From a virus: a stretch of 23,885 nt of DNA. A model generated the notes under the pieces. The model did not search any database. It was given only the letters and a program-made list of their open reading frames with translations, and was not told the origin of the DNA. The DNA is taken from IMG/VR virus record IMGVR_UViG_3300025645_000444, positions 1 through 23,885 of that record; one strand, written 5' to 3'. Position 1 is the first letter of the stretch. Each line of letters opens with the position of its first letter. The position numbers and the translations under genes were made by a program. Positions 18,097 through 23,885 of the stretch are shown here, piece by piece.

Positions 18097-18100
18097 AAAC

Positions 18101-18171
18101 TACAGCTACCTTTAGCGGGGGAAAAGACGATTCATCACCGTCCTGCTGTAATTTTTAGTGATGACTTCCGC
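18101..18171 (+). ncRNA. Folded leader (pseudoknot-capable) before the HNH gene
   Basis: This short non-coding stretch holds several pairable segments. TACAGC (18101-18106) pairs with GCTGTA (18145-18150), and GACG (18126-18129) pairs with CGTC (18139-18142). TCATCAC (18132-18138) in that hairpin loop pairs with GTGATGA (18158-18164), and GCGG (18115-18118) pairs with CCGC (18168-18171). AGCGGG can alternatively pair with CCTGCT. It may be an intron remnant or a translational control element. The motif GCGGGGGAAAA recalls group I intron P4 but the rest of the core is not evident. Confidence 0.4.
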
Positions 18172-18188
18172 CAATGATGAGGTGCGAC

Positions 18189-18668
18189 ATGCTTACTTAT
18201 TTAATTCCTAAACTTAATGAATTACTGTATGTAAAAAACAGTATTTTCTATTGGAAAAAAACACAGGGTAGAAGAATTGCTCATAAACCTGCTGGATGGC
18301 TTTCCAAAGGTTATGTACTGATTGGAATTTGTAATGAAGTACATCCAGCTCATAGATTATTATTTTCTTTACATCATAACTATTGCCCTGAATTTATAGA
18401 TCATATTGATGGTAATAGAGCAAATAATAAAATAGAAAATTTAAGACCTGCAACTTTGAATGAAAATGCAAGAAATTGCAAAAAACCAAGTCATAACACA
18501 AGTGGATTTAAAGGTGTAGGTTGGGATAAAAATAGAAATAAATGGATGGCATATATCACGATTAATAATAAATTCAAATCTTTAGGAAGATATGAAAACA
18601 TAAATGATGCTAATTTAGCTTACATCACAGCTGCTAAATTTTATTTTGGAAATTTTGCAAGGATTTAA
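18189..18668 (+). CDS. HNH homing endonuclease with AP2-type DNA-binding domain
   Basis: The frame is open from 18174, but GAGGTG just before the ATG at 18189 favours that start (159 residues). The N-terminal part (MLTYLIPKLNELLYVKN...FYWKKTQGRR) is typical of phage HNH_3 proteins. The catalytic block runs HRLLFSLHHN then DHIDGNRANNKIENLRP (about 58-91). The C-terminal AP2-like part (SGFKGVGWDKNRNKWMAYI, LGRYENINDANLAY) would bind DNA. Such genes spread by cutting a homologous site in a competing phage. Its last codons hold the ribosome site (AAGGA) of the intact rusA. The gene is more AT-rich than its neighbours, suggesting recent transfer. Confidence 0.9.
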   Translation: MLTYLIPKLNELLYVKNSIFYWKKTQGRRIAHKPAGWLSKGYVLIGICNEVHPAHRLLFSLHHNYCPEFIDHIDGNRANNKIENLRPATLNENARNCKKPSHNTSGFKGVGWDKNRNKWMAYITINNKFKSLGRYENINDANLAYITAAKFYFGNFARI

Positions 18669-22573: not shown

Positions 22574-23038
22574 ATGAGTCGTAAGAAATGTAAACGTAAG
22601 CACTATGCAACAACTGGTTTTGATGCAGTTGGACACGCTATCTCTGGTGCAAGGATAGTAGACCAAAAATCTTTGGATTTGCTCACAATGAGAGATCTAA
22701 GCAGTTTAGAAGCTATCATGAACGGTAAAGGTGGAGTGCAAGAATGGTGGGACTTAACTGGTAGCCTAAATATTTGCGAAACAATGGCTCGTAATGGTAT
22801 TGGAAAAGAAGCATTGGATGATTGCGCAATCGCTCAAACAGAACTCAAGAATGCTGCTAAACGGTATGACAGATCAAAAGTAATGGGTTTTACAGGTATT
22901 GGAATTACAGCAATCAGGAATATGCTTGAGTATCATCAATTACAACGACAAATTATTAGTAGATCAGACTATTCCAAGTATATAAAAATGACGTTAGATA
23001 GATATACAAGTCGCGCACCAGAATTAGATTGTGTATAA
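22574..23038 (+). CDS. Conserved-looking phage protein of unknown function
   Basis: The frame is open further upstream, but AATAGGAATGAT before the ATG at 22574 fixes a 154-residue form (MSRKKCKRKHYATTGFDAVG...). The basic N-terminus is followed by a helical body with SLDLLTMRDLSSLEAIMNGK, LNICETMARNGIGKEALDDC, and FTGIGITAIRNMLEYHQLQ. No catalytic motif is visible. It has the look of a phage regulator or antitermination-type protein, but this is only an impression. It lies directly before the long non-coding stretch, so it may work with it. Confidence 0.7.
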   Translation: MSRKKCKRKHYATTGFDAVGHAISGARIVDQKSLDLLTMRDLSSLEAIMNGKGGVQEWWDLTGSLNICETMARNGIGKEALDDCAIAQTELKNAAKRYDRSKVMGFTGIGITAIRNMLEYHQLQRQIISRSDYSKYIKMTLDRYTSRAPELDCV

Positions 23039-23040
23039 TT

Positions 23041-23400
23041 AAATCGTCAAGTGCTGCAACACTAGATTAATGAGACTTCTTTCTCATGCGTTACCCTTAA
23101 AAAAGGAACTGGTGTTGCAGCATCAGAGCGCAGTAGAAAGAAGTCTTTTTGCGTTTTAGTTCCAATTGCTAATGACGAAATAATGAACCATGTCCCGGTT
23201 GCTGTTGAGAATAGGGATGCGCTCTTAAGGGTCGGCGCGAGAACTTGCTAGAGGTATCTCAGGAACAGGCAAAATGGGTGATGAAGTTTAGGCCAGCTTA
23301 TTGGTCGCCTGGAAATAGAATCTAGTCCTCATGGGTGTGATGGTCTTAACAAAGATGGTCAAAGTAGGGTATATCACCCTCTTGGCCCTTCCTATGTCTA
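23041..23400 (+). ncRNA. Candidate structured RNA or switch in a 371-base gene-free stretch
   Basis: No convincing gene fills 23039-23409. Instead complementary segments abound. TGCTGCAACAC pairs with GTGTTGCAGCA; AGACTTCTTTCT (23073-23084) pairs with AGAAAGAAGTCT (23135-23146), which is followed by five T. AGAGCGCA (23125-23132) pairs with TGCGCTCT (23218-23225), ACCCTTAA (23093-23100) with TTAAGGGT (23225-23232), and GGCCA (23291-23295) with TGGTC (23302-23306), stacked on CAGGC/GCCTG. AGGGT/ACCCT (23366-23380) makes a last hairpin. Several pairings cross or exclude each other. The stretch is also GC-richer than its flanks. It matches no RNA family I know. Confidence 0.5.
23051..23123 (+). 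repeat. Long inverted repeat at the start of the gene-free stretch
   Basis: TGCTGCAACAC (23052-23062) is the perfect complement of GTGTTGCAGCA (23112-23122), and G-T pairs extend the stem to about 15 positions. The loop contains ATGAGA/TCTCAT (23070-23087) and CCTT/AAGG (23095-23106) hairpins. It may cap the upstream transcript or form the first domain of a structured RNA. Confidence 0.6.
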
Positions 23401-23409
23401 AAGGAATGT

Positions 23410-23733
23410 ATGGAAATTGAACCACTAAAAGCAATTGAATATATACAACGTAATGCAGGAACTTATGCACAAGCCAAAGCAAACAGGATCTACATTGAAA
23501 ACTATCTCAAAACAGTCAAAGCTAGACTTATGGGAAATTCAGATGAAAAAGCAATTGGAGCAAAGGAGATGGATGCTTATGCAAGCTCAATCTACGTTGA
23601 ACAATTGGATGGCCTCAAAGCTGCAATAGAAATAGAAGAAACATTAAGGTATATGTTAGAAGCTGCCAAGATGAAGGTCGAAATTTGGAAGGTGCAAGAG
23701 TACACCAAGCGAACAGAAATGAAGATGCAATGA
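23410..23733 (+). CDS. Helical coiled-coil phage protein
   Basis: The 107-residue product (MEIEPLKAIEYIQRNAGTYA...) is almost entirely helical with charged heptads (AQAKANRIYIENYLKTVKAR, YVEQLDGLKAAIEIEETLRY, AAKMKVEIWKVQEYTKR). It is a pattern I associate with a common phage gene near recombination and packaging functions, of unknown role. AAGGA four bases before the ATG is the ribosome site. It is ATGA-coupled to the Ref-like nuclease gene, suggesting a paired function. Confidence 0.75.
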   Translation: MEIEPLKAIEYIQRNAGTYAQAKANRIYIENYLKTVKARLMGNSDEKAIGAKEMDAYASSIYVEQLDGLKAAIEIEETLRYMLEAAKMKVEIWKVQEYTKRTEMKMQ

Positions 23734-23885
23734 ACGAGAAGCAGTACAAGCAAAAGCTAGTCACTCTTGGTTGTATGGTTTGCAGGCGTTTATACGGCAT
23801 AACAGACAGCCCGGTACAGTTGCATCACTTTAGATCTGGAGGCTGGGGAAGGGGTGATTACACCACCCTGATACCCCTTTGCCCT
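23730..23885 (+). CDS. Ref-like HNH nuclease (partial, runs off window)
   Basis: The 52 visible codons read MNEKQYKQKLVTLGCMVCRR, then LYGITDSPVQLHHFRSGGWG and end TTLIPLCP. CxxC (Cys15, Cys18), a later His-His (32-33) and a C-terminal LC make the layout of the P1 Ref/DUF968-type HNH fold, in which zinc-bound cysteines frame the His active site. Ref cuts DNA held in RecA displacement loops. The second half, with the final catalytic His cluster, lies beyond the edge. ATGA-coupled to the coiled-coil gene. Confidence 0.75.
   Translation, partial: MNEKQYKQKLVTLGCMVCRRLYGITDSPVQLHHFRSGGWGRGDYTTLIPLCP

Follow-up and report, generated by a model that had tools for sequence, protein, structure and literature searches.

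The 371-base gene-free stretch close to the downstream end of the window (the whole 23,885-nucleotide stretch of DNA analysed here) appears, by comparison with related sequences, to encode a member of a new class of large structured RNAs in environmental phages. By "new" we mean a class of RNA without homology to any Rfam family; the general bin of large phage noncoding RNAs already exists. The 371 bases lie between the stop codon of gene A (23038) and the start of gene B (23410). The putative RNA, its promoter element and the flanking genes are as follows:

22574..23038, plus strand, gene A, with a weak match to phrog_20828; the TAA that ends it falls within the RNA's -10 box
23034..23039, plus strand, -10 box TATAAT, 6 nt before the 5' end of the RNA
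23046..23396, plus strand, putative structured RNA of about 351 nt, its 5' end placed from the promoter and its 3' end where conservation stops (CCUAUG)
23400..23405, plus strand, AAAGGA, at the 3' border of the insert; by its sequence the likely ribosome-binding site of gene B
23410..23733, plus strand, gene B (107 aa), whose family adjoins the RNA in other phages too
23730..23885, plus strand, first part of a small HNH nuclease gene (RecA_dep_nuc-like, phrog_1588) that is truncated by the end of the window

The original prediction, which was made from the letters of the window, held that the stretch has no convincing ORF, and this was borne out by an ORF check. The 11- and 12-base complementary pairs and the several 8-base pairs that had been described are present as well; perfect helices of 12, 11, 8, 8, 8 and 7 bp can be drawn, the two longest being:

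23073-23084/23135-23146, plus strand, 12-bp perfect helix
23052-23062/23112-23122, plus strand, 11-bp perfect helix

That such pairs outnumber the chance expectation also proved correct. Five helices of at least 8 bp are present compared with 0.85 expected from 200 dinucleotide shuffles, none of which reached five. The minimum free energy z-score is -2.39 on the plus strand and -1.93 on the minus strand, so that the plus strand folds better. The predicted excess of GC over the flanks exists, but it is small: 0.43 in the stretch versus 0.38 and 0.41 on either side of it and 0.40 window-wide, which places the stretch at the 79th percentile among 371-base windows. The gene-free, helix-rich character of the stretch is confirmed.

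Relatives were sought by pattern scans. The first useful 16-base pattern gave 22 matches, among which, besides the window's own phage, the sole true homolog was L047, a locus of another phage about 70% identical over 390 bases; its RNA lies directly before terS and terL, and its 12-bp helix carries a compensated change. Further patterns drawn from the blocks conserved between the window and L047 retrieved 79 loci of the same type as the window, 61 of them distinct, as well as over 100 looser relatives, which share the motif GTCAGGGCGC..AGCTRATGG. The search of metagenomes and phages thus recovered a family present in other phages at many genomic positions. A covariance model trained on loci of the window's type gave 148 bits (E 3.5e-41) for the window, which was part of the training set, E 5e-19 for L223 and L235, and E values from 8e-7 to 5e-10 for the looser relatives L107, L112 and L113. 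Looser relatives of the L100 type did not score with this model. They are linked to the family by the GTCAGGGCGC motif, by a similar 3' end and by 5' modules matching at 72%, and L100 (MW202484.1) and L054 share a 5' module with E 6e-12; the core of the L100 type is likely homologous to that of the window's type. In L119 the domain-2 motif (GTCAGGGCGC...CCCAAGAAA) is tandemly duplicated within one RNA.

When about 85,000 prokaryote genomes were scanned by pattern, one true homolog was obtained, the other seven of the eight matches being due to chance; the same pattern matched 36 viral stretches. A covariance search of 369 genomes of the same class as the genome carrying L095, run behind a limited first-look filter, returned only the already known genome. 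One of 50,697 phage records carries the RNA, namely MW202484.1, a metagenomic podovirus, which was found by L054, L106 and L108. BLASTN searches of phages gave chance matches only with the window RNA and no matches with the RNAs of L047, L269, L232, L235 and L112; a search of plasmids with the L052 RNA gave none either. The match to L017 (85% over 38 bases) was rejected as chance; it lies inside a coding gene on the opposite strand. The hypothetical protein UOF77725.1, which overlies the RNA at L100 6041-6400 (MW202484.1 33533-33892), is probably a spurious ORF. The identifiers of L212 and L137 (IMG/VR 2519899633 and 2913625563) have a format that resembles isolate genomes rather than metagenomes, and proviruses with looser relatives of the RNA may accordingly reside in cultured hosts.

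Alignment of the 3' core of 54 distinct sequences yielded a structure of 13 helices with crossing sets, three of the helices being pseudoknotted. Its main elements in the window are:

23186..23217, plus strand, h1 (23186-89/23197-200) crossing h2 (23193-96/23214-17); 7 of 8 pairs changed on both sides
within 23219..23390, plus strand, h3 hairpin (23219-23/23234-38), whose loop 23227-23233 pairs with 23384-23390
the same loop and partner, plus strand, h12, the pseudoknot joining the h3 loop to the 3' end of the RNA; 100% paired in the 54 cores, 5 of 7 pairs changed on both sides
23239..23325, plus strand, h4 (23239-42/23257-60) crossing h5 (23248-52/23321-25); 9 of 9 pairs changed on both sides
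23266..23311, plus strand, h6 (23266-70/23307-11), enclosing hairpin h7, from the core alignment
23277..23378, plus strand, h8 (23277-82/23373-78), crossing; 5 of 6 pairs changed on both sides
23338-40/23359-61, plus strand, h11 hairpin; 100% paired, 3 of 3 pairs covary
23344-46/23353-55, plus strand, h10 hairpin; 96% paired
23362-64/23381-83, plus strand, h13 hairpin, in the 3' hairpin group 23338..23383

Across the 13 helices, 97.4% of cells are paired. Changes on both sides were seen at 43 of the 57 core pairs (375 cells) versus 22.2 pairs (89 cells) in shuffle controls, which ignore the relatedness of the sequences; when the partner strands were slid, pairing fell to 34-40% and 15-23 pairs were doubly changed. 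Relatedness is an unlikely cause of the covariation, because of the slid controls and because different changes occur repeatedly within single helices: one h5 pair is found as CG, UA and GC and another as UA, AU, CG and GC. The h12 pseudoknot reads AAGGGUC/GGCCCUU in the window and ACAAGCC/GGCUUGU in nearly all relatives. The h7 pairs of the window read uncleanly because its row is shifted at this place in the alignment. What defines the class, a covarying 13-helix 3' core in which the h3 loop is pseudoknotted with the 3' end, is thus present in the window.

This comparative structure retains the 11-, 12- and 7-bp helices and discards the three 8-bp ones, since their strands have other, covarying partners (23227-23233/23384-23390, 23321-23325/23248-23252 and 23127-23132/23087-23092). 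A closing helix GUCAAG/CUUGGC was dropped as well, its strands being better supported with other partners. Helices do cross, as had been foreseen, but most of the crossing is formed by helices other than those originally named. Strong covariation in homologous loci is accompanied by 1- and 2-nt indels among the aligned homologs, and a conserved reading frame is therefore excluded. The interpretation of the stretch as an undescribed structured phage RNA is supported by this covariation, pseudoknots included, and by the failure of Rfam to match the RNA in the window and in the relatives tested.

Upstream of the core lies a 5' module:

23046..23067, plus strand, P1 hairpin, GUC/GAC in the family (23046-23048/23065-23067), its loop holding the 5' strand of helix A
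23052..23122, plus strand, helix A (23052-23061/23113-23122), pseudoknot between the P1 loop and the loop of hairpin B
23073-23084/23135-23146, plus strand, helix B, 12 bp and perfect in the window, followed by B2 (23087-23092/23127-23132)
23146..23150, plus strand, U-run directly after hairpin B, terminator-like, the large loop of the hairpin being filled by the pseudoknot

P1 is paired in 94% of cells, and its pairs are nearly invariant, so covariation lends it weak support. Helix A, which crosses helix B, is changed on both sides at nine of its ten pairs. For the 5' module as a whole, such double-sided changes affect 16 of 32 pairs versus 6.7 in shuffles. A run of at least four T follows hairpin B in 54 of 57 members of the window's type and in 82 of 105 looser relatives. 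The L262 homolog has lost the 3' strands of both helix A and helix B through an internal deletion and keeps the rest; this is either a natural experiment on the 5' module or an artefact of assembly. In L108 and L204, the 5' module upstream of GTCAGGGCGC is replaced by what looks by eye like a tRNA-like fold, with a long acceptor-like helix and a T-arm-like loop, GGTTCGATTCC; an Rfam search of L108 found no tRNA.

In 30 homologs, the hexamer located 6 nt upstream of the GTCAAG/GTCAAA start matches TATAAT at 4.9 of 6 positions on average, compared with 1.3-2.6 at other spacers. Some homologs, e.g., L052, L054 and L083, have perfect TTGACA/TATAAT promoters; no good -35 candidate was found when the window promoter was scanned. 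In the window, L052, L083, L225, L226, L230 and many other loci the -10 box contains the stop codon of the upstream gene. Since the spacing from this box to the conserved 5' end is exactly 6 nt, we infer a discrete transcript from about 23046 to about 23396. The extent first proposed, 23041-23409, would then include the RNA but be somewhat too long, and its last part, 23400-23409, resembles the ribosome-binding region of gene B. No terminator was seen after the 3' end of the RNA in the members read. At most loci a co-directional gene begins a few bases past the RNA, often with its ribosome-binding site at the edge of the RNA. By crude ORF calling, the next gene is on the same strand in 109 of 140 loci and not in the other 31. 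At loci where the RNA precedes a capsid gene, a promoter-like stretch was noticed between the two (L109, L114, L115, L128, L144, L169, L187 and L210), followed by conserved, possibly structured sequence of the type GACAACCGCAAGGCCCATGACAGCAGTAG...GGTGCGATGTAAAGCACAAG, perhaps a leader of the capsid gene. These TTGACA..TATAAT-like stretches were read by eye; a scan with spacers of 16-18 nt was uninformative.

Gene B has relatives on 14 viral contigs. One of them, L002, is the same phage as the window and has the RNA stretch. The close relatives L003, L004 and L005, which are 76-88% identical upstream, are devoid of it: the stop codon of gene A abuts or overlaps the ATG of gene B there (GTATGATGG or GTGTAATGG), which makes the RNA a clean insertion, and both genes are intact in these RNA-less phages as well as in the window. 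The more distant L006 also has gene B without a preceding RNA stretch. Given these four relatives, the stretch was most likely gained in the lineage of the window, with damage to neither gene.

Labelling of neighbouring genes by tblastn revealed that the RNA occupies many junctions in other phages: the boundaries gene A/gene B, gene B/HNH, HNH/terS, terS/terL and scaffold/capsid, and positions upstream of an HNH gene, after terL, after Rz and upstream of replication genes. Different junctions often sit within one common gene order. The major capsid protein at the scaffold-capsid junction is phrog_3437; the scaffold label is by position only, the protein having no PHROG match. In L067, L112 and L211 the RNA comes after an Rz-like spanin gene, and the ORF called next lies on the opposite strand; family support for these opposite-strand neighbours in L067 and L211 is absent or weak. 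3' cores that are 95-98% identical accompany terminase small subunits without BLAST similarity to each other, and the terL proteins of the same phages are only 33-43% identical. The RNA stretch is present exactly once in each of the 21 viral records matched by the model (21 of 21). At the level of sequence, the comparisons show the RNA behaving as a horizontally moving cassette located at gene junctions, with one copy per genome. That its fold is conserved, that it occurs once per genome with a promoter of its own and that it moves between phages would imply a useful or a selfish role.

Searches for a known counterpart gave the following results. At the gathering score, Rfam 15 did not match the RNA in the window and 12 relatives, and relaxation to E=10 produced nothing beyond noise, with no GOLLD in the window, L047, L054 or L100. 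The Rfam covariance model of ROOL did not match the window or the relatives tested. A tmRNA was rejected: ARAGORN found neither tRNA nor tmRNA in the window, and alpha_tmRNA scored 9.5 bits against a cut-off of 50. So were group I and group II introns, for which Rfam gave no match in the window up to E=10; no gene is interrupted, as genes A and B are intact and abut or overlap in RNA-less relatives. Rfam 15 does not contain the class, and the phage records and bacterial genomes searched have almost none of it, which would explain how it could escape notice.

Several known phage RNAs share features with this one. In the lambda late leader with 6S RNA and in HK022 PUT, a promoter, an RNA and a terminator-like hairpin precede late genes. 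The same three elements are found here, but the fold past the terminator-like element is much larger and more conserved, and the RNA is not tied to late genes. The pRNA of phi29 is a phage RNA with complementary loops that is tied to one type of motor. The window RNA resembles it in having complementary loops and in often being close to packaging genes, and differs in occupying many non-packaging positions and in accompanying unrelated terminase small subunits. A literature search, which took in no preprints and few subscription papers, returned one relevant paper, on GOLLD, ROOL and OLE (PMC12286853). GOLLD is a large, pseudoknot-rich RNA of phages and prophages, 800 nt or more in length and with no function assigned, whose 3' region is conserved and 5' region less so, and whose linker sometimes holds tRNAs (PMC12286853). 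The window RNA is likewise large and pseudoknot-rich, its 3' region is also better conserved than its 5' region, and the tRNA-like 5' module seen by eye in L108 and L204 recalls GOLLD; it differs in its length of about 350 nt, in lying between protein genes, in having no tRNA in the window and in the lack of an Rfam match. Proximity to tRNA genes and a homo-oligomeric cage are further marks of GOLLD. ROOL is phage-encoded and has many pseudoknots and no known protein partner, and its solved structure contains conserved intermolecular kissing loops (PMC12286853). Unlike ROOL, the window RNA is shorter and unmatched in Rfam, and its oligomerisation is a possibility raised by helix A. The RNA, most likely stand-alone and trans-acting, is comparable to GOLLD and ROOL and, by Rfam search, unrelated to both; it may serve as a shorter, well-aligned counterpart of the two for probing the roles of large phage RNAs.

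The explanation that we favour, with modest confidence, is a stand-alone gene for a phage noncoding RNA acting in trans. The host RNA polymerase containing σ70 would initiate the RNA on the G that opens GUCAAG (about 23046). The P1 loop would pair with the loop of hairpin B, the U-run coming next, and in the 3' core, of about 13 helices, several pseudoknots would tie the 3' end back. The folded RNA might act in trans alone, as an oligomer held together by loop complementarity, or together with a protein of the host or the phage, and would not regulate the gene behind it; it would spread between phages as a cassette entering two-gene junctions. The argument for trans action is that a regulator of a single gene would keep its gene and this RNA does not: its many different junctions speak for no single regulated gene, and the opposite-strand ORFs that follow it in L067, L112 and L211 favour the same reading. 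No protein partner or target of the RNA was found. The compensated turnover of helix A would suit intermolecular loop-loop contacts as in ROOL, and an intramolecular pseudoknot equally well. A bolder version, unlikely on balance, combines a protein-free, self-contained mobile RNA gene, structured and carrying its own promoter between phages and, within syntenic genomes, between junctions, with an RNA-only complex assembled through the variable complementary loops and serving the phage.

A less probable explanation, though one to be taken seriously, is a cis-acting leader, i.e., a promoter and a structured 5' region through which transcription or translation of the following gene is altered, either as a processive antitermination RNA of the PUT/EAR style, which would let downstream terminators be read through in cis, or as an attenuator in which the kissing helix A is set against the terminator-like hairpin B. 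The fixed -10 box would fit such a leader, as would the conserved hairpin B with its U-run and the crossing of A and B, and so would the same-strand gene with a ribosome-binding site that often comes immediately after an RNA with no terminator seen behind it. But the most conserved part of the RNA lies past the U-run, so that control of termination upstream of it is impossible for the core. The downstream gene, moreover, varies between phages and across early, packaging, capsid and lysis regions, which speaks against PUT/EAR-type antitermination in particular; in L067, L112 and L211 no same-strand gene was called directly after the RNA, and several capsid-type loci have, by eye, an additional TTGACA/TATAAT-like stretch before the capsid gene. 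We consider it quite unlikely that the stretch is a selfish mobile RNA, acting like a ribozyme or mobilised in trans, that places itself between genes. Its precise insertion between intact genes at many different sites, its horizontal transfer and the frequent overlap of the -10 box with the upstream stop codon are what such an element would produce, but no terminal inverted repeats were seen, no protein is encoded, each genome has one copy, Rfam gave no intron or ribozyme match, and no clear target-site duplication was seen, TGTAT alone being common to both junctions in the window. Ordinary recombination of phage modules would explain the mobility. A phi29-like DNA-packaging RNA, in which the P1 and B loops of separate molecules pair, giving a ring at the packaging motor, is very unlikely: loops of 10-12 nt that change sequence together and a frequent position directly before terS/terL agree with it, but the RNA also neighbours capsid, lysis and replication genes and occurs with unrelated terminase small subunits, whereas a phi29-like pRNA is bound to one motor type, and no Rfam packaging RNA matched in the window at E up to 10. 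Finally, a decayed gene or chance folding, which a gene-free sequence between genes might at first suggest, is refuted by the comparative data, given the covariation and the indels of the homologs and, for a decayed gene, the relatives that lack the stretch altogether and have no intact gene in its place.

A second, unrelated structured RNA was detected at a separate locus of the window:

18099-18164, plus strand, int-alpA RNA (RF02996, 37.3 bits), immediately before an HNH-AP2 endonuclease gene (18174-18668)

Like the RNA described here, int-alpA is a structured phage RNA between genes; unlike it, it is 66 nt long. The phage of the window thus carries two structured RNAs.
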